Positions 9,286 to 28,559 of a stretch of 64,000 nt of DNA are shown one piece after another. Positions within the stretch are counted from its first letter, which is position 1. Each line of letters starts with the position of its first letter. This stretch comes from Armatimonadota bacterium (GTDB lineage Bacteria; Armatimonadota; Chthonomonadetes; Chthonomonadales; Chthonomonadaceae). The notes below the pieces were generated by a model. The model saw only the letters and a program-made list of their open reading frames with translations, searched no databases and was not told the DNA's origin. Where the stretch lies: the NCBI GenBank assembly GCA_028871815.1, contig JAGWMJ010000004.1, positions 62,001 through 126,000 of the forward strand. Direction: 5' to 3'. Both the position numbers and the translations under genes were made by a program.

Positions 9286-9538
9286 TCGTCCCGGCGCCGC
9301 TGCCGGCCGGATAGACGGGTAGGCTGGCGCGCCGTCAAGTTAAATCGGGAAGGAATCCCGGTACATCCTCGCAAAATCTCTGCCATGGGGTCGCGTCCTG
9401 CCGGAAAGAGTGGCAGCTACACGGCTTCATTGAGACCGGCCGTGAGTTGTGCCGGCCCGGCCGTGCCGTGCCGCTTGAATACGCCTGCCGCAGGCGGGCG
9501 CCTCTACCGGCAGAATGCACCGGCAGGAGGAGATTGGT

Positions 9539-10909
9539 ATGAAAAACGCCACACCGTGCGCAGTTTTTGGGGCACTGCTCTTCGTGGTTCTGCCATCGAT
9601 AGCTCGTGCGGCGCCGCCACCGCCGCTCTACTCCGTCATCAATGTGAATCCGGTCGGGTCGTCAAGCGTGCTCGCATATGATCTCAACGACGACTATCAG
9701 GTTGTTGGTTACGGCTTCGCCGGCGCCAATGAACGTGGGTTCCTCTGGATGCCCGGCGTGCCATCTTTTGCTTACGACACGATCTCAGGCGACACCAAGT
9801 ACGGCGCATACGCGATCAACGCCCTGGGGCAGATCGCAGGCGCCGGCTACAACTCCACGCTTAACAATGCGGCAAATGCAACTATCTGGGATCCCGTTGG
9901 ATACCTGAGCACAGGCTACACAAAGGCGGTTGACCTCGCAGGCACGGGAACGTTTGGCTCAGCTTTTCACGGAATGGACCAGTTTGGTGAGGCCGTCGGC
10001 TGGCTCAGCGCAAGCAATACCACCGCAAACTCGCTCCTGTGGGCCAGCAACGCAGCCTCGCAGGGCGTGGCTGCCTATCGTCCATATGCCGTCAACTATT
10101 CCTATTTCGCGTCGTGTGGCTATAATCCGACCACAGGTCAGGCAACCTGGGCGCCGTCGCTCCAGTCGCCGGCGACCCCTACTCCGCTCACAGGCGGTAC
10201 GTTTGGCGGCAGCACGTTCGCAAACTACTCCTATGCCTGGGCGCTCGATGAGGCAAACGATGTTGTTGGCGATTGCTTCAACAGCACGACAGCCGGCTAC
10301 CAGGCGTTCGCATGGAACGGGATGACGGGCGCGCCATACGGCCCCCTCGGAAACCTGCCGAATACCAATACATCGCAGGCAGATGGCATCGATTCTGTAA
10401 CCGGCCAGGTCGTCGGCCAGTCCGGCTACCACGCCTTTCTCTGGCAGGGAGATATCACCACCCCCTCCACCGGGACGATGACCGATCTGAACTCACTGAT
10501 TGAAAACAACAGTGGCTGGCTCCTGGTGCACGCGTATGCGATCAACGACTATGGCGCCATTGTCGGGTATGGGTACTACCAGCATGCGGAGGCCGCTTTT
10601 CTCGCCATACCGGTGGTTGTCAGCAGTCTCACCATGGCCTCGCCATCCGTAGTTGGCGGCAATACGATTTCAGGTACCGTCACGCTGGACGCGCCGGCTC
10701 CGTTCGACATGAATGTCACCGTGAGTTCATACAGCTCCAAGGTGAACTTCGGCGCCGGCGTCTACTCAACCGGTGTGGTGATCTACTCCGGCAACACAAG
10801 CGCGGACTTCGTGGCGAACACCAGTACCGTCACGAGCGACACGCCGGCTGTACTGAAGGCCACGTTTGGCGGCTGGCGCCGGTACGCTACCATCCACGTC
10901 CTCCCTTAG
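9539..10909 (+). CDS. secreted HAF-repeat protein, paralog 1
   Basis: A 456-residue protein. The ATG at 9539 follows AGGAGGAG by 6 bp. The Sec signal peptide runs MKNATPCAVFGALLFVVLPS to about ARA. The body contains HAF-type repeats, short units pairing a phrase like LNDDYQVVGYG or AINALGQIAGAG with an aromatic phrase such as GFLWMPG, AFAWNG or AFLWQGD; these probably form a propeller-like fold. The last 95 residues are a beta domain (SGTVTLDAPAPFDM to ATFGGWRRYATIHVLP) shared with the paralogs at 19210-20568 and 27183-28559. It is probably extracellular or cell-surface; the ligand is unknown. A GC-rich inverted repeat (9482-9496) precedes the gene. Confidence 0.85.
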   Translation: MKNATPCAVFGALLFVVLPSIARAAPPPPLYSVINVNPVGSSSVLAYDLNDDYQVVGYGFAGANERGFLWMPGVPSFAYDTISGDTKYGAYAINALGQIAGAGYNSTLNNAANATIWDPVGYLSTGYTKAVDLAGTGTFGSAFHGMDQFGEAVGWLSASNTTANSLLWASNAASQGVAAYRPYAVNYSYFASCGYNPTTGQATWAPSLQSPATPTPLTGGTFGGSTFANYSYAWALDEANDVVGDCFNSTTAGYQAFAWNGMTGAPYGPLGNLPNTNTSQADGIDSVTGQVVGQSGYHAFLWQGDITTPSTGTMTDLNSLIENNSGWLLVHAYAINDYGAIVGYGYYQHAEAAFLAIPVVVSSLTMASPSVVGGNTISGTVTLDAPAPFDMNVTVSSYSSKVNFGAGVYSTGVVIYSGNTSADFVANTSTVTSDTPAVLKATFGGWRRYATIHVLP

Positions 10910-19209: not shown

Positions 19210-20568
19210 CTACGGTATTACCACGATGTGGGCATACTGCCGCCAACCACCAAACGTTGCCTTCAGTGTGACCGGCGTCGGTGCGGTAACCGTCGTAGTG
19301 CCGGCGGCGAAGCCGGCGCTGGTATCGCCTGCGTTTATGATGACGGACGTCGAGTAGATCCCGGCGCCGAAGTTCACCTTCGCGTTGTATGTCGTCAACG
19401 TGACGCTCATGTCAAACGGCGCCGGAGCGCTGAGCGTGATCGTGCCAGTGAAGGGCGATCCCTCGATCACCGTCGCTACGCTCAGCGTCATGCCATTGAG
19501 TACGGTGGGTATTGCCAGGAAGCCTGCCGGCGCCTGGTGATAGTATCCGGTGCCAACGATATCGCCGTAGTCATCAAGCGCCGTGGCGCGCCTCAGCAGC
19601 CAGCCGCTTCTGGGCTGGACCAGCGTGTTCAAATCGGTCATCGTTCCGGCAGTCGGATTGGTGAGGTCTCCCCGCCAGATGAACGCACGCTCGCCGGAAG
19701 ATCCGACTACATAGCCGGCAACATCGTTCACGGCGTTGGCTTCGCTATCCGGAGCATGCGGCAACAACCCCAGCGGCCCATACGCCGCGAGCTGCAAGCC
19801 ATTCCACGCATAGGCCTCCGGCTGGGTCGTGGTCAGGTTGTTCTGGTAACCTACAATGTCGTCGGCGGCGTCAATGCCTGACGACCGCGACGGCGCTGAG
19901 TAGGCGTTTCCGTTGAACGTACCGCCTACCGGCAGATCGCGGATTGCCGGAGTCGTGAACATATTGAGGCTGAATGCGGCCACTTCGCCGGTTGTATCAT
20001 CCTGGATTGCAAGATCCTCATATACCGGGCTAACCCCGGTTGCCGTGCCGTACGGTCCTGTGACGACGCTCCCGGGTGGGACTTCAATCGTAGCATGCCC
20101 GTCAGCGTCCGAACTATCGGAAATCCTGCCTGCCGCCCAACCGTCGTCGTTGATCGCGAAGAAGGCACCCGGCGTGCCCGTGGTGGTGAGAAAATACCGC
20201 ACCGCCAGCGAGTAAGCGGTTGAAAGATAGGCGGATGGCGCCCAGAGTGCTGGCTCGTATGTGGTCGCATTGAGCTCCGCGCCGCCGATCGTCCCCAGAT
20301 TGTTGATCGCGTCGGCGGACCACTGTGTGGCGCCATCGGTATCGAAGTGGTACGACGGTACGCCAGGCATCCATACGAAGCCCTTTCCGGAGCTGTCGGT
20401 GCCCACAACCTGGCAGTCGTCATTGATTCCCGCCGGGGTGCCAACGAGGCCCACCGGGTTGATGTTGATAATCGAGTACTCCGGCAGCGCCTGGGCAAAC
20501 GCGGACCGCGACAGCGCAGCCGCGGCAAGCAGCACAACGGCAAATGCCAACGCGGATTGCGATTTCAT
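19210..20568 (-). CDS. secreted HAF-repeat protein, paralog 2
   Basis: A 452-residue protein; the ATG at 20568 is preceded by AAGGAGT. The signal peptide is MKSQSALAFAVVLLAAAALS to about AFA. The opening YSIININPVGLVGTPAGIND and the HAF units (CQVVGTDSSGKGFVWMPG, AINNLGTIGGAE, GDIVGTGYY) match the other two paralogs. The C-terminal domain again ends in ATFGGWRQYAHIVVIP. The frame extends upstream to 20976, but nothing before 20568 is conserved with the other paralogs. It is convergent with gcvP across a 93-bp gap. Confidence 0.85.
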   Translation of the reverse strand: MKSQSALAFAVVLLAAAALSRSAFAQALPEYSIININPVGLVGTPAGINDDCQVVGTDSSGKGFVWMPGVPSYHFDTDGATQWSADAINNLGTIGGAELNATTYEPALWAPSAYLSTAYSLAVRYFLTTTGTPGAFFAINDDGWAAGRISDSSDADGHATIEVPPGSVVTGPYGTATGVSPVYEDLAIQDDTTGEVAAFSLNMFTTPAIRDLPVGGTFNGNAYSAPSRSSGIDAADDIVGYQNNLTTTQPEAYAWNGLQLAAYGPLGLLPHAPDSEANAVNDVAGYVVGSSGERAFIWRGDLTNPTAGTMTDLNTLVQPRSGWLLRRATALDDYGDIVGTGYYHQAPAGFLAIPTVLNGMTLSVATVIEGSPFTGTITLSAPAPFDMSVTLTTYNAKVNFGAGIYSTSVIINAGDTSAGFAAGTTTVTAPTPVTLKATFGGWRQYAHIVVIP

Positions 20569-20757
20569 GCTAAGGACTCCTTTCAACACCGCGCTGCGCG
20601 CGGAGCGCTGGTCGGCAGCTTCCATGCGGCAGGCTCCTGGCGATGCGGTACCTGCCGCGCGTCGGCCATCCATCGCCGTTTGACGACAACTGCGATAACC
20701 GCATTCTACTTTAGCGCAAATGTAGCGCCGAACAGCACAAACCGCTGCAGCATTGCG

Positions 20758-20763
20758 TATACT
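20758..20763 (+). promoter_or_regulatory. possible -10 element giving a near-leaderless mRNA
   Basis: TATACT ends 10 bp before the ATG at 20774, so transcription would start almost at the start codon. No -35 consensus is seen. The same hexamer precedes lepA. Confidence 0.3.
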
Positions 20764-20773
20764 AGACCTACGT

Positions 20774-21301
20774 ATGATCAAAGTTCGTACAGTCGGTCGT
20801 CGGCCCGTAGTGTTGCGCATTTCCGCCGCCTGCCTGGCGACCGCCACCGTGGCAATGGGAATGCCATCACGCGCTGCGGTCTTGCAGTGCCCCGACGGCA
20901 CGCGCTGCACGCCGCAAATGGCGTGCCGGCAGAGTCCGTCAACTTGCTCGATACCCGTGCGCACGCCGCGCTGCACGTGTACCTCTGCGGCACAAATGGG
21001 CGACTGCCCGAAATGCCATCCGTCTGCTGCCTATCACAACAGCAGCCGCGTTCAAGCGCGGGCCGAAGCGCGCCGTGGCTGTGTCTGTGTCGTTCGTCTG
21101 CCCCGCTCGCGCCAGCCGGCCTGGCTTAATGTTACCGGCCGGCTGACTGCCATCGCACTGCGCTATGCGCCCCTGCCGCAGCAGCCCTTCGCCTGCATCA
21201 CGGGCAAGACAGTACGGTCGCCGGTTCGACCTCGCGCTCCGCCGGGAAACCGGTCTCGCCCCGCAACCGCCGCCCCTCCGCGCGCCCCGCCCACCCTGTA
21301 A
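20774..21301 (+). CDS. small exported Cys- and Pro-rich protein, function unknown
   Basis: A 175-residue product. A hydrophobic segment after RTVGRRPVVLRISAACLATA looks like a signal peptide, followed by a cysteine-dense part (LQCPDGTRCTPQMAC, CTCTSAAQMGDCPKC) and a Pro/Arg-rich tail. The CPDGTxC...C spacing suggests disulfides or a small metal site. There are no catalytic motifs and no recognised family. It sits between the divergent HAF gene and the RND adaptor (158 bp downstream), so a link with metal efflux is conceivable but unproven. Confidence 0.5.
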   Translation: MIKVRTVGRRPVVLRISAACLATATVAMGMPSRAAVLQCPDGTRCTPQMACRQSPSTCSIPVRTPRCTCTSAAQMGDCPKCHPSAAYHNSSRVQARAEARRGCVCVVRLPRSRQPAWLNVTGRLTAIALRYAPLPQQPFACITGKTVRSPVRPRAPPGNRSRPATAAPPRAPPTL

Positions 21302-21459: not shown

Positions 21460-23292
21460 ATGGGAACATCAGCACCGGAGAAAAAATGGCATCCATGGCG
21501 CACCGTTTTCGGTATCGCCATGCTGCTGGTTGCCTGGTTTGCCAGTGAATGGTTGGTAAAACGCTATACGCCGCCTGGCCACACAGATGTGATTGCCGCA
21601 CAGGCGATGGACATGAGCGCCATTAGGCCGTCGACAGGCGCTGCTCCTGTGACGGTATCGACCGTCGTCTCAGGGTCGCTAGGCGCTACGGTCACCTACA
21701 CGGGAGAGGCGCATAACGAAGCCTCCGTCATGATCGCCGCGCGCGTCGACGGCACGCTCACCGAGATGCCCTGGTATCCCGGCATGCACGTGAATGCCGG
21801 CGATCTGCTGGCGCGCATCGATCCGCGCGAGCTCGACTCACGCGTGCAGCAGCAGATCGCAGCCCTTTCGATGAGCCGGCACGAAGCGTTGATTGCCGGG
21901 ATCAACGCTCGAGCCGCCCTGGCGACCAGCGCCGGCGCAGCCGCGGCCGTGGACACCGCGAAGGCAGAAGAAGCCCAGGCAGAGGCCGGAGTTGCCAATG
22001 CTCGGGCAGAGGCGGCCGCCGCGCTTTCCGATGTTTCAGCGGCGGAAGCGGCGCTTACCGCCGCAAAGACGGGAACGGTGAGTGCCCGGGCGGGCGTAAA
22101 GGCGGCGGCTGCCGCCGCACAGTCGGCAGCCGCTCAGGCAAGCCGCATGACGCTCCTCGTTGGGAAGGGCGTTGTATCTCAGCGTAAAGCCGACGTCGCG
22201 GCCGCCGAGAACGCCGACGCGCAGGCACGGCTGACACAAGCTACCGATGCTGTGGCGACCGCCGACGCATCGGTTGCGTCTGCAGCTGCGCAGGTGGCGC
22301 GCGCGAGAGCGATGGCGAAGGCTTCTAGTTCATCGGTTTCGGCTGCGCTTCAGGCAGGCGCATCTGCTCAAGCAAAAGTTCGGCAGGCGCGCGCTGCAGC
22401 CAGTGCAGCCCGCCAGAACGCGGCTGCCGTCGCACACGAGGTGCCACATACGCAGGCCGCCATCGCGCAGTCAGCCGCCAATCTGAACACCGCCAGCATT
22501 ATCGCGGGCTACACGGTTATCCGTGCTCCGTTCTCCGGCGTGGTAACGGACCGCGATCTGGCGCAGGGAGCGCTGGTGCAGGCCGGCGCACCAATTCTGG
22601 ATATCGCGCAGAACAGCATGATGCGCCTGCAAGCGAACGTCGCACAAAGCGACGCCTGGAGAATCCGGCCCGGCGACATTGTAACCGTCGATCTTCCGGG
22701 CGGCGGCGCACCCATTTCCACGCGGGTGAGCACGATCTTCCCGATCGCCGATCCAACGGCGCATACCTCGGTGGTGGAAGCCCTGGTACCCAATCCACAG
22801 GGTCGCATCCGATCCGGCGACTTCGTCACGATGCATATTCAGTTAGGTGAGGCGCGCACGGCTCTGTTGGCTCCGCTCTCCGCGATTGTGAAGGTTCCGG
22901 TCGCAACGACGCCCGTCCTGGCTACCGGTACGACGGCGGCCGTATGGACTGTGGTAGAGGGCAAGGCCGCCAAAACCATTTGGACCTGCTCGATGCACCC
23001 GCAAATCCGCGAGAACCACCCGGGCAAGTGCCCGATATGAGGGTGGAAGCTCATCCCACAGGCTGTGGGAGGAACGTTATCGGCGAAGTTGGTGCCCGTC
23101 ACGCTCGGCAGCCATAACGGGAGCTTCGTGGATATACTGTCCGGCCTGGTGGCAGGGCAATCGGTGATCACGAGCGGCTACCGGAACCTCAAGGATGGAG
23201 ACGCGATCACCACGGCCGGCGCGTCGGCGCCGCCACCGGCGGATCTGAAACGAAATACCCCAATGCCGGGAATGGCTGGGATGTCACAGTGA
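21460..23292 (+). CDS. RND efflux periplasmic adaptor (HlyD/CusB-like) with inserted heavy-metal-binding domain and in-frame UGA
   Basis: 610 codons including an internal TGA at 23038-23040. Residues 17-33 form a single membrane anchor (VFGIAMLLVAWFASEWL). The lipoyl half (VTYTGEAHNEASVMIAARVD to LLARIDPRELDSRV), a long Ala-rich coiled-coil hairpin (residues 130-330), the second half (YTVIRAPFSGVVTDRDLAQG) and a beta barrel follow. Within the membrane-proximal region a heavy-metal-binding motif is inserted (WTCSMHPQIRENHPGKCPI), then TGA, then GWKLIP in the same frame. The family sequence is CPICGM-LVP, so UGA stands at the second Cys of CPIC. The frame stays open with adaptor-like sequence (KLVPVTLGSHNGSFVDILSG) to 23292, overlapping the pump start. 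If UGA terminates, the product is 526 residues and lacks the end of the membrane-proximal domain. Confidence 0.8.
23038..23073 (+). promoter_or_regulatory. in-frame UGA followed by hairpin: candidate bacterial SECIS element
   Basis: The UGA at 23038-23040 is followed by an inverted repeat TCCCACA-GGC-TGTGGGA (23054-23070): seven pairs with a 3-nt GGC loop, plus two more pairs outside an A-G mismatch (23052-23072 and 23051-23073). The loop begins 20 nt after the UGA and starts with G. Both features fall within published rules for bacterial SECIS elements (loop 16-37 nt downstream, G among the first two loop bases). The hairpin could also be accidental or serve another purpose. Confidence 0.4.
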
Positions 23293-26200
23293 GTAGAGCA
23301 CCGAACCCGCGCCGCGGTACCGGCGGCCTGAGTCGCATACCGCAGTGGTCCATCGAGCACCCGTATGTGGTAGTGCCGTTTTACGTTGCGGTGATCGCTG
23401 TAGCGATATTGTGCGTCCGGTCGGTGATACCGCGCAGGTTCGCGCCCTACGTCCCCAGCCCGGAGCTGGGCGTGGTGACTGCGATGCCCGGTCTCTCTGC
23501 CAAAGAGATGGAGCTTCAGGTTTCGGGCCCGCTCGAGCAGCAGCTCATCGACGTCCAGAACCTGCACTATGTGCGCAGTATCTCGGAAAACGGGATATCC
23601 ATCGTTATTCTGGAGTTCAACTACGGCACCGATATGTCGAAGGCGCAGGCGAGCGTGCAAACGCTGCTTAATGTCGCACAGGCAAACCTGCCGGTCACCG
23701 GCGCCAACCTGAAGCCATCGTTCATCATCCCGGTTGATTCGTTGAATCTGCCGGTGATAACGTTCTCCCTCACCGGCGACGCGTCCCAGGGCTGGACGAT
23801 GGCGAAGCTGCGTGAATTCGCCGACAACACGGTTGTAAGAAAGCTCAAGGCGCTTTCAGATGTCTTTGCCGTGGTGACGTTCGGCGGTTACCGCCGCCAG
23901 ATCCAGGTGATCGTCGATCGAAACAAGCTCGCCGCATATGGTCTCTCCATCCTGAACGTTCGCGACGCCATCGATACATATAACGTCAGCGAGCCTGCAG
24001 GCACCATCACCACGAGCGCCACCGAGAGCATCATTCGGGTCGACAGTCGGGCGCGCTCGGCGGCCGACGTGGCAGCGTATCCGCTGACTGCGCACAACGG
24101 CGCCATTATACGTGTTGGTGATGTGGCCCATGTGGTCGATAGCTGGTGGGAACGGAAGAGCGCCTACAACTACCTGAGCCACGCGCCGGGAACAGCCGGC
24201 AGCGTAACGCCCTCCATCGAGGTCTCCGTTATCCAGAATCCGGGCGCCAGTTCGTATCAGGTGGTTCCCGGCGTCAACCGTGTCATTCATCAGGTGGAGC
24301 ACCTGTATCCCGGCACACATTTTGCCGCCGCTTACGACAATGCCCACTTTGTCAACATCCTCTTCAACAACGTTTGGGAAGAGCTTGGCCTGGCCGTACT
24401 CCTCACGGCTTTGGTGGTGGTCTTCTTCCTCGGCGAGTGGCGGGGAACACTGATCGCGCTCATTACGCTGCCAACGGCGCTCGCTATGGCTGTATTGATG
24501 CTCGTTCCGTTCCACATGACGTTCAACAGCGGCACGCTCATTGGGCTGCTGCTTTCCATCGGACGCCTTACCGACGACACCATCATCGACATCCATTCTG
24601 TGGAACGGCACCTGAGAATGGGCAAAAACGCCAGAACGGCGACCATAGACGGCATTGCCGAAGTGCGGATGGCTGTGATCGGGTCCACGGTGGTGTTGAT
24701 CCTCGCGCTATCGCCACTGCTGGTCTGCGGCGGCATCACCCAACTGATGTTTGTGGAACTGGTCTGGCCGATCATCTTTGGCCTGCTGGCTTCCATGCTC
24801 GTTTCATTTACGCTTACCGCGCTGCTGTGCGCCAACTGGCTGCGCCCCGAATCGGCGCGTGATGCCGACCGGAAGCACTGGCTGCTTCGGTGGCTCTACC
24901 TGCCGCTGGATCCGTTTCAGCACATGCTGGACCGGCTCGAGAAAGCCTATACACGAGCCATCCGGTCGCTGCTGCGCAACCGGTTCCTGAATGTCGCCGC
25001 CATCGGCGTCACCGTCATCATCGGTCTTACTGTCTATCACTTCATCGGCTCTGAAATGATGCCGCTGGCCGATGTGGGGCAGGCAAGTGGTGTGCTGGAG
25101 ATGAAGCCGGGAACCAGCTTTGAGGCCACCGAAAACGCGGTCCACCAGCTGGAGCAGATTATGTTGAAGTACCCCGAGCTTCAGCGCGCCTCCATCGAAA
25201 TCGGTACGGAAAACATGTTCGAGAGCTTCAGTCCCTACTTTACAGGGTATCAGATGCCGCAGGCCGACGGCGCTTCCATGATGCTCACTTTCATCGATAA
25301 GGATCAGCGACGCCGCAGCATCTGGCAGCTGATGGACGGTATACGGAAGCAGGCGCTCGCTACCATCCCCGGCATACGAAGGCTTCAACTCAAAGAGATG
25401 GGCGCCGACGTGATGGCTACGTCGGACGCGCCGGTTGATCTGATCATCTCGGGACCGAGCCTCAAGGAGCTTGCCGTGCTGGGGCGGCAAACCCGCGACA
25501 TCGCCCGGCATACTCCGGGCCTGGTGCAAACCGCAACCACCTGGGCGATGGGTGTACCAGACTATGTGGTGCATGTGGATCCCGCGCGCGCGCAACAGGT
25601 GGGGCTTACGCCGGCGAGCATCGCGGAACAGACGTACTACGCCATGCATGGCGGAGTAGCGAGCCAGTTCTTCCAGCTGCCCAATATCCGGCAAGATACG
25701 ATCGATATCCGTTACCGCGGGTCTCAGCGACTGACGCCGGATCAGTTGGGCCTGATGATGCTGGCCACGCCATCGGGAACCACAATCCCGCTTAAGGCGG
25801 TTGCAAGTGTGGAACTTCAGTCGGCGCCGACCGCCATCGAGCACGATGGCCTGCAGCGCGTCATCGGCGTTACCGGCTACTACCGCAAGGGGGGTCCGCC
25901 ATCCATGGACCTGGCGATGAGCGTGATGATGAAGGCTATGGATACGCTGAACTTTCCACCGGGCTACAACATAGCGATGCGTGGCGATATGACGCAGATG
26001 ATGGAGAGCTTCCGACGGCTGCTGTACGGTCTGCTCTTCGCACTGGTGCTGATGTATCTGGTTCTGGTTGCGCAGTTCCGTGGATTCCTACAGCCGCTCC
26101 AGATGCTGGCTTCGTTGCCGCTCGAACTCTCTGGTGTCTTCTTCGCGCTCTGGATTGCGCATCAGGCATTTTCAACTGTATCCATAATGGCCATCATAGT

Positions 26201-26582
26201 ACTAAGCGGCATGGACATGACCGCGGCCATCCTCATGATCGATCTCGTGTCGAAGTACCGGGACCGCGGCATCCCGCGCGACCGGGCGATCGAGGAGGCA
26301 TGCCCGCAGCGGCTGCGGCCCATCCTGATGACCGCGCTCATCACCATCGTGGTTATGGCGCCGGTGGCGCTGGCGCCCCGCACCGGTTTGGACGCTTATC
26401 AGCCGCTGGGCACCACCATTCTCGGCGGCCTCACGGTGGGCACACTCCTCAGCCTGTTCGAAATACCGCTGATGCACACGTACGTCGACGACCTGGTGAA
26501 ATGGATCCAGAAAGTCTTCCTCAAACGTGACTGGACGTGGCCGGTTATCGATGAGAGCGCTGAAGAACGTGAAAGCGGGTAG
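23289..26582 (+). CDS. RND-family efflux transporter (AcrB/CusA superfamily)
   Basis: A 1097-residue inner-membrane pump. The GTG at 23289 overlaps the adaptor stop by 4 bp. Topology is the usual 12 TM with two large periplasmic loops. TM1 follows WSIEHPYVVVPFYVAVIAVA. TM4 carries the paired acidic residues of the proton relay in IGRLTDDTIIDIHSVERHL. In TM10 the segment is LSGMDMTAAILMIDLV, without the Lys that AcrB has there, so this half differs from drug exporters. Because the adaptor contains a heavy-metal-binding insertion, metal-ion export is the likely role. No TolC-like outer-membrane partner is present in the window. Confidence 0.88.
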   Translation: MSRAPNPRRGTGGLSRIPQWSIEHPYVVVPFYVAVIAVAILCVRSVIPRRFAPYVPSPELGVVTAMPGLSAKEMELQVSGPLEQQLIDVQNLHYVRSISENGISIVILEFNYGTDMSKAQASVQTLLNVAQANLPVTGANLKPSFIIPVDSLNLPVITFSLTGDASQGWTMAKLREFADNTVVRKLKALSDVFAVVTFGGYRRQIQVIVDRNKLAAYGLSILNVRDAIDTYNVSEPAGTITTSATESIIRVDSRARSAADVAAYPLTAHNGAIIRVGDVAHVVDSWWERKSAYNYLSHAPGTAGSVTPSIEVSVIQNPGASSYQVVPGVNRVIHQVEHLYPGTHFAAAYDNAHFVNILFNNVWEELGLAVLLTALVVVFFLGEWRGTLIALITLPTALAMAVLMLVPFHMTFNSGTLIGLLLSIGRLTDDTIIDIHSVERHLRMGKNARTATIDGIAEVRMAVIGSTVVLILALSPLLVCGGITQLMFVELVWPIIFGLLASMLVSFTLTALLCANWLRPESARDADRKHWLLRWLYLPLDPFQHMLDRLEKAYTRAIRSLLRNRFLNVAAIGVTVIIGLTVYHFIGSEMMPLADVGQASGVLEMKPGTSFEATENAVHQLEQIMLKYPELQRASIEIGTENMFESFSPYFTGYQMPQADGASMMLTFIDKDQRRRSIWQLMDGIRKQALATIPGIRRLQLKEMGADVMATSDAPVDLIISGPSLKELAVLGRQTRDIARHTPGLVQTATTWAMGVPDYVVHVDPARAQQVGLTPASIAEQTYYAMHGGVASQFFQLPNIRQDTIDIRYRGSQRLTPDQLGLMMLATPSGTTIPLKAVASVELQSAPTAIEHDGLQRVIGVTGYYRKGGPPSMDLAMSVMMKAMDTLNFPPGYNIAMRGDMTQMMESFRRLLYGLLFALVLMYLVLVAQFRGFLQPLQMLASLPLELSGVFFALWIAHQAFSTVSIMAIIVLSGMDMTAAILMIDLVSKYRDRGIPRDRAIEEACPQRLRPILMTALITIVVMAPVALAPRTGLDAYQPLGTTILGGLTVGTLLSLFEIPLMHTYVDDLVKWIQKVFLKRDWTWPVIDESAEERESG

Positions 26583-26757: not shown

Positions 26758-27182
26758 CGGTTACGCCCGTGTGTGGGGTTACCAGATATGTGAGACGGCA
26801 ACCACTCTGCCCGCTTCTGCGCCTGAGTTGCGATCGCCGCCGCGAACCAATCTCAGCGGCATCGGTGCAGCGGAGGCAGGGCAGCCTTGCTCGGTCGTCC
26901 AGTTTCTGGGCGGTCATCACAACCAACACAGTTGGATCAACCGCTGATCGTTCCCTCGAGGCGCGCATCCCCAAAACAGCTTCCGGATGGCATGGCGATA
27001 ACCACATCAGATACCGCGAGTCGCCAACGTCCGGGGAGGACAACACGGCGGCAATCTGGAACCGTACCTTTGCGCCGCCGTTCGGCTTCGGCGCCCGGTA
27101 TTATCGGCACTCGCCACTCGCGGCCTTCGGTATCGGTATTCGCTGCCGCAGCCGTTTGCTGTTTAGAAAGGAAATCGACACC

Positions 27183-28559
27183 ATGAAGTTTCGAAGACTT
27201 GGAACACTCATTGCTGTTGCCCTTGCGGCCATCGCAATTCCGCGCCCTGGCATCGCCCAGCAGTACTCGATCATCAATGTCAACCCGAGCGGCACAATCG
27301 GCACGCCAACCGGGGTCAACGATGACTACCAGGTTGTCGGGAACGATGGCACCGGTAAAGGGTTCGTCTGGATGCCGGGTGTGCCGTCGTTCCATTTCGA
27401 TACGACCGTGTCGCATACACACTACTACGGCTATGCGATCAACAATCTGGGGGAGATCGGTGGAACCGCCTGGAACGCCACTGTGAGTGCCGCCGTTGCC
27501 CTCGGCGTGTGGGCTCCGATCGCGTACTTTAGCACCACGTATACGGTCGTTGAAAACCTGGGCGGCAGCAACGCTACGGATTGGCCCGGGGCCGCTCTCG
27601 GGATAAATGACGATGGCTACCTTTGCGGGACCATTCAGGATACCGCCAGGACGCCGGACACGTTCGATGGCATTGAATTCGCACCAGACACCAGCTACGC
27701 ATACTATTTTGCGAACGATCAGTACACCGGCGTCTCGAACATATTTGAGGATATGTGCGGTACGGATATCGGCGTTACCCCGGCTCAGGCGGTATTCAGC
27801 TCCAACTTCTTTACCAAGGGATTCGGCGCCGTAGCGCTGACCGGAGGCAGTTTTGGCGGCGTGACGTACACCACACCCTCCACGGCAACCGGAATAGACG
27901 ATTCCGATGACGTAGTCGGAAGCGCGCAGAGCAGCGTCACCGGCGCTGCCGAGGCATTTGCCTGGAATGGGCGGACGGGCGCGCCGTACGGTCCGCTTGG
28001 TTACCTGCACAACACCGACTACAGTGTAGCGAACGCCATCAATACGGCGAGTGGCATTGTCGTGGGACAATCGGGTAAGCATGCCTTCCTCTGGTCTGGT
28101 GATGTTACCAACCCGTCCGCAGGCACCATGACCGACCTGAACACGCTTGTAGAGAACAGCAGCGGCTGGCGCCTCGTCAACGCAACGGGTCTGAACGACT
28201 ATGGCGCTATTGTAGGCACCGGTTACTATCAGCAGAAGCAGGCCGGCTTCCTGGCAATACCGGTAATCATCAGCAGCATCTCCACGACTTACCCAACCGT
28301 GGTAGGCGGCCAGACCATCAGCGGAACCGTAACGCTCGACGCACCCGCACCGTTCGATATGGACGTAACGGTGACGTCTTACAGCGGCAAACTGAACTTC
28401 GGCACCGGAGTCTACTCCACCGGCGTGCTGATTTCGGCCGGCAATACGAGTGCGGACTTTGTGGCAAATACCAGCACCGTCACTACCGACACGCCGGTTG
28501 TCCTCAAGGCTACGTTTGGTGGATGGCGGCGATACACCACGGTTCACATTCTGCCTTAG
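27183..28559 (+). CDS. secreted HAF-repeat protein, paralog 3
   Basis: A 458-residue protein. The ATG at 27183 follows GAAAGGAAA. The signal peptide is MKFRRLGTLIAVALAAIAIP to about GIA. The body starts YSIINVNPSGTIGTPTGVND and carries HAF units such as YQVVGNDGTGKGFVWMPG, AINNLGEIGGTA, AFAWNGRTGAPYGPLG and HAFLWSGD. The C-terminal domain is very close to paralog 1, including NFGTGVYSTGV, NTSADFVANTSTVT and KATFGGWRRY. Paralogs 1 and 3 share the same start of the C-terminal domain (VVGG-TISGTVTLDAPAPFDM), suggesting a more recent duplication between them than with paralog 2. Confidence 0.85.
   Translation: MKFRRLGTLIAVALAAIAIPRPGIAQQYSIINVNPSGTIGTPTGVNDDYQVVGNDGTGKGFVWMPGVPSFHFDTTVSHTHYYGYAINNLGEIGGTAWNATVSAAVALGVWAPIAYFSTTYTVVENLGGSNATDWPGAALGINDDGYLCGTIQDTARTPDTFDGIEFAPDTSYAYYFANDQYTGVSNIFEDMCGTDIGVTPAQAVFSSNFFTKGFGAVALTGGSFGGVTYTTPSTATGIDDSDDVVGSAQSSVTGAAEAFAWNGRTGAPYGPLGYLHNTDYSVANAINTASGIVVGQSGKHAFLWSGDVTNPSAGTMTDLNTLVENSSGWRLVNATGLNDYGAIVGTGYYQQKQAGFLAIPVIISSISTTYPTVVGGQTISGTVTLDAPAPFDMDVTVTSYSGKLNFGTGVYSTGVLISAGNTSADFVANTSTVTTDTPVVLKATFGGWRRYTTVHILP

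Follow-up and report, generated by a model that had tools for sequence, protein, structure and literature searches.

The question raised by this locus is whether an in-frame UGA in a gene for an RND periplasmic adaptor (membrane-fusion protein) ends translation or is decoded as selenocysteine (Sec) and, if it is decoded, what a Sec residue might do in such a protein. The gene lies in a 64,000-nucleotide stretch of DNA from an Armatimonadota bacterium, which is referred to here as the window. The original prediction was that the UGA may specify Sec at a metal site, with a single-base nonsense mutation or a sequencing error as the competing view. The adaptor frame opens with an ATG, reads GKCPI up to the TGA in question, resumes with GWKLIP and remains open until the TGA at 23290–23292, so that with the UGA read as Sec the product is 610 residues long. 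Our translation, in which every coordinate was checked, reproduced this frame, the KCPI/TGA/GWKLIP reading and the positions as originally described, as well as the 4-bp overlap between the adaptor gene and the pump gene that follows it (Table 1). The product was recognized as an RND adaptor by the TIGR01730 RND_mfp profile (160.6 bits, cut-off 94.9), it had Pfam matches to HlyD_D23, HlyD_3 and HMBD, and its gene adjoins one whose product matched ACR_tran at 628 bits. Searches of NCBIfam with the read-through protein returned generic adaptor families only. As is expected of a selenoprotein gene, homologous coding sequence was present on both sides of the UGA. The adaptor ends in a Met-rich tail, as does its closest homologue from another genome (MPGMSMPSQ).

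Table 1. Features of the adaptor-pump locus, in window coordinates
Feature	Position	Strand	Basis or remark
Small Cys-rich ORF, probably exported (QCPDGTRC...MGDCPKC), upstream of adaptor	20753..21301	+	
RND periplasmic adaptor (membrane-fusion protein) gene	21460..23292	+	translation, TIGR01730, Pfam
HMBD heavy-metal-binding domain codons (residues 508–533)	22981..23058	+	PF19335, PDB matches
Proposed selenocysteine codon, in-frame UGA (residue 527)	23038..23040	+	
Apical SECIS-like hairpin TCCCACA/GGC/TGTGGGA	23054..23070	+	fits bSECIS model
Met-rich C-terminal tail of adaptor (TPMPGMAGMSQ)	23257..23289	+	
RND permease gene	23289..26582	+	starts GTG 23289, 4-bp overlap with adaptor

The UGA falls within a heavy-metal-binding domain. 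With Sec taken as Cys for scoring, PF19335 (HMBD) matched with an E-value of 1e-11 and 45.0 bits against a gathering cut-off of 23.6, which agrees with the earlier proposal that the UGA stands for the second Cys of a CPxC motif. The domain is located past the barrel region of the adaptor and ahead of a C-terminal segment that aligns with MacA 307–332, and its PDB matches, 8ovl and 3rfu, are copper ATPases. The same YTCxMHP...PGxCPxC domain is found in those ATPases and in other HMBD adaptors, whereas the window protein would have Sec for the second CPxC Cys and has Trp for the next Met, giving a predicted site of Cys510-x13-Cys524-Pro-Ile-Sec527-Gly-Trp529. In an alignment with the N-terminal metal segment of Escherichia coli CusB (sequence from NC_000913.3, numbered as the mature protein), Sec527 fell at Met36, Trp529 at Met38 and Met512 at Met21. 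Cu(I) is bound in CusB by these three Met residues, M21, M36 and M38, as was shown using selenomethionine-labelled protein (PMC6235853). CusB, the Cu(I)/Ag(I) efflux adaptor, is likewise an RND-pump adaptor with a homologous metal-binding segment; however, that segment is N-terminal in CusB and follows the barrel in the window adaptor, where the predicted residues are Cys/Cys/Sec, with Trp in place of Met38, and where the partner pump is not CusA-like.

A search for the selenocysteine genes, suggested as a check in the original prediction, recovered all four of selA, selB, selC and selD in the window's genome. The tRNA-Sec (69.9 bits, cut-off 47), identified by ARAGORN as tRNA-SeC(tca), is encoded 2.3 kb past the end of the window, and SelA (464 bits, cut-off 268), SelB (353 bits, cut-off 242) and SelD (349 bits) likewise scored above their cut-offs, all four cut-offs being curated ones. 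The selD gene has one in-frame TGA of its own, at the Sec site (CAG-U-AAK), so that Sec insertion is required in this genome for a gene other than the adaptor. Judged by its gene content, the cell is able to decode UGA as Sec. That UGA has not been globally reassigned is indicated by the adaptor gene itself, as it terminates at an ordinary TGA.

Additional data came from a comparison of 201 genomes, comprising the window's own (G000) and 200 relatives. The best match outside the window's own genome was in G002, a single-contig genome, 99% complete, from a different genus within the same family. The adaptor encoded there shares ~40% identity with that of the window and has a UGA at the identical codon (HPGKCPI-UGA-GW), and G002 has selB (376 bits), selA (529 bits) and tRNA-Sec (64.8 bits) over their cut-offs. 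Over the 80 codons that precede the UGA, identity between the two genes at the first, second and third codon positions was 0.57/0.69/0.26; over the 60 codons that follow, it was 0.50/0.67/0.30. The constraint is therefore alike on both sides of the UGA, and the downstream part evolves as translated sequence. As sequence evidence, the in-frame UGA, its homologous continuation and its sharing with a second genus are together far beyond chance. In all the remaining HMBD-bearing homologues that were read, the position is occupied by TGC or TGT, so the alignment of homologues proposed earlier gave Cys as the usual residue and the same UGA in a distant homologue from a Sec-decoding genome. Three of the genomes with Cys (G005, G020 and G025) lack selA; two others (G008 and G027) have the Sec machinery. 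A search for related loci found distant HMBD or adaptor relatives only, and among the further matches listed, those judged by eye to be HMBD-like were in G000 and G002 only.

The adaptors of G000, G002 and G008, together with locus L049, formed one clade (SH-aLRT 98, in a tree with long branches made by a quick method). The G008 gene (L023, L187) is in the same operon arrangement, has the CPI-x-GW context and is accompanied by a pump 65% identical to that of the window, but its codon is TGC, the model hairpin is absent and it carries an additional N-terminal YtkA domain. Pump identity was 65–66% among the three genomes, and for that reason the operons are probably orthologous. The original prediction named a close relative with a sense Cys codon and without the hairpin as evidence that would count against Sec, and with its TGC, G008 touches on this in part. 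G008, though, represents the Cys form in a Sec/Cys orthologue pair of the ordinary type, and it does not correct the window sequence. Either there was a single Cys-to-Sec change with G008 reverting, or Sec arose twice. We also observed that in G008 (L187:6375-8726, minus strand) the YtkA-like domain, which contains Met-rich stretches, is fused to the N terminus of the adaptor.

A scan of 395 genomes from the phylum of a Desulfobacteraceae locus yielded one more genuine-looking UGA in an HMBD, on contig C148 (L203) of genome G512. There, a CusB-like adaptor reads YTCGMHPFIISDKPGNCPI-UGA-GMALTKIEG in its N-terminal part, with the UGA at the same HMBD position and a Pfam HMBD score of 50.3 bits. 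This segment is followed by a second CusB-like metal segment, of the Met type, and then by adaptor-like sequence to the end of the contig. In the selD of G512 the Sec site is again occupied by an in-frame TGA; a search of ~0.93 Mb (~37%) of the 2.5-Mb genome did not recover selA, selB or tRNA-Sec, which says little. G512 is a single fragmentary case, and its UGA could be an error. An apparent double-UGA HMBD in G540 was rejected as a chance occurrence, its frame being full of stops.

The hairpin that follows the UGA was as originally described with regard to its position, its 7-bp stem (23054–23060/23064–23070) and its GGC loop, which begins 20 nt after the UGA. It satisfies all four bSECIS constraints quoted in PMC13188914, and weaker pairing lengthens it to ~23043–23084, at −13.7 to −15.5 kcal/mol. 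The SECIS argument of the original prediction was weaker than stated: 9.6% of synonymous-codon randomizations yielded a model hairpin of equal or greater stability. Similarly, in four window genes, 3–7% of codon positions gave a model hairpin at least equally stable, and global RNA stability after the UGA was not above the synonymous expectation in any homologue. A strict contiguous-stem SECIS scan of the G002 gene gave a very weak hairpin only. Both UGA genes have an AGGC apex at matching positions, 19 nt after the UGA, with differing stems, two sequences being too few for covariation; the folds were −13.7 kcal/mol for the window and −12.2 kcal/mol for G002, whose AGGC hairpin needs a bulge. 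An Rfam scan of the two UGA regions returned nothing relevant. The hairpin is thus compatible with Sec insertion, at the strength of a weak indication: it is not proof, and it is not significant alone.

Overall, the complete sel machinery, the UGA shared with G002 and the equal codon-position constraint around it support the reading originally put forward, and we consider it very likely that the adaptor is made in full length with Sec at the UGA, insertion itself being what these sequences would imply. Under this reading, SelA would make Sec-tRNA-Sec using selenophosphate from SelD, the stem-loop just past the UGA would guide SelB, which delivers the Sec-tRNA-Sec, and the adaptor would be translated through to its true stop at 23290. 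Sec527 would then most likely coordinate a thiophilic metal ion in the periplasm, as a soft ligand that loses its proton readily. Compared with a thiolate or thioether, a selenolate is both softer and more acidic as a ligand, which would make Cu(I), Ag(I) and Hg(II) the natural candidates. The metal might be passed to the adjacent RND pump, or its binding might switch the pump on, in a manner comparable to that of CusB Met36. Given Sec decoding, a role for Sec527 as a metal ligand is reasonably probable; that the metal would be Cu(I)/Ag(I) is about an even bet.

Whether such a metal would be the cargo of the pump is a separate matter. The permease is nearer to HAE-type than to CusA-type models, with multidrug permease models outscoring the CusA/CzcA model, and at 330 bits it fell below the cut-off of 701 for TIGR00914, which sets it apart from the HME-type (CusBA/CzcBA) pumps. 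Its TM4 carries DD. CusA residues Met573, Met672, Glu939 and Lys984 are not conserved in it, and of the CusA-type residues compared, the Met623 position alone is Met, within a gapped region. The CusB/CzcB-type label given to the adaptor in the original prediction therefore applies to its metal-binding domain and does not extend to its partner pump. Since these residues are not conserved, the pump offers no support for a metal cargo, and because it is without CusA metal and proton-relay residues, we favor a metal-binding Sec site, for sensing or loading, on an RND adaptor over simple metal cargo.

The upstream Cys-rich ORF possibly encodes a partner metal-binding protein. Similar Cys-rich ORFs (W/LQC..GT.C ... 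C..C) precede the adaptor in G002 (L186:5182-5646) and G008 (L187, ~9492-9635, minus strand). Neither the window copy nor that of G002 had a Pfam match; the G002 and G008 ORFs matched at 2e-7 in a small database, and the window copy matched weakly (E 0.05). The adaptor-pump pair is flanked by two similar long ORFs, one on each side, at 19210–20976 (minus strand) and 26769–28559 (plus strand), which share repeated stretches of the SIINVNP/GIND type and resemble each other in the C-terminal half.

Of the alternatives, the one that survives best has the Sec insertion step in common with our reading and differs in the role of the residue. CPIU is also a CxxU motif, and Cys524 and Sec527 might form a selenenylsulfide that acts as a redox switch or reductase in the adaptor. 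Among inventoried selenoproteins, CxxU is a redox motif that recurs (PMC13188914), and a pump without the CusA metal-path residues would suit such a role; however, the host domain is a heavy-metal-binding domain that aligns with the copper-binding segment of CusB, and a thioredoxin-like domain was not found in the adaptor. We regard the redox role as rather unlikely.

That the UGA is instead a nonsense mutation, leaving a pseudogene or a programmed truncation that lacks the C-terminal segment and the last part of the HMBD, is in our view very improbable. UGA does serve as a stop in other window genes, a change from TGC or TGT requires one base, and the hairpin evidence is weak, yet G002 has kept the same UGA at ~40% protein identity, codon-position constraint is unchanged past it, the overlapping pump is intact and the Sec machinery is present. 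A UGA globally reassigned to an amino acid, or read unspecifically by a near-cognate tRNA, would also leave the frame open, but the normal TGA at the end of the adaptor gene and the cognate tRNA-Sec and SelB of the genome make this highly implausible. The window is drawn from a 22-contig assembly, and even so an error in a Cys codon is barely credible with the identical UGA in an independent genome, G002, and another in an HMBD adaptor of a different phylum. The shared UGA and the equal two-sided constraint are left unexplained by the competing view of the original prediction, whether as a nonsense mutation of this gene alone or as an error in the assembled sequence.

A 2026 inventory of prokaryotic selenoproteins holds 119 families or subfamilies, several of which are in metal transport (PMC13188914). 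Among those families there is no RND adaptor or HMBD protein. The inventory's mercuric transport protein, E1-E2 cation ATPase, SO_0444 family Cu/Zn efflux transporter, MbdU and YHS protein resemble the window adaptor in their predicted roles in metal transport, binding or resistance (PMC13188914); they differ in belonging to other families, none being an RND adaptor or listed with an HMBD. Our search of the open-access journal literature found no RND or HMBD selenoprotein, and it returned nothing relevant on selenocysteine in Chthonomonas or on selenoproteins in Armatimonadota. The UGA adaptor therefore seems to represent a selenoprotein family that has gone unrecorded, although its kind is familiar. 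To the broader proposal, that HMBD adaptors of two or more phyla took up Sec independently, each time at the same metal-ligand position, and constitute such a family, with selenium as a periplasmic soft-metal ligand gating or loading a non-CusA-type RND pump, we would assign equal chances of being right and wrong.

If true, the RND adaptor and the HMBD domain would join the selenoproteins, with Sec aligned to the Cu(I)-holding Met36 of CusB. Ordinary annotation would shorten the UGA adaptors by 84 residues, to a 526-residue product, and so lose the end of the metal site. For many of the predicted Sec proteins that handle metals a mechanism is missing, and the window adaptor has a well-studied paralogue, a natural Cys orthologue and a small, separable domain. 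Because of these, the effect of Sec on metal affinity, transfer or redox sensing would be directly testable in this family.
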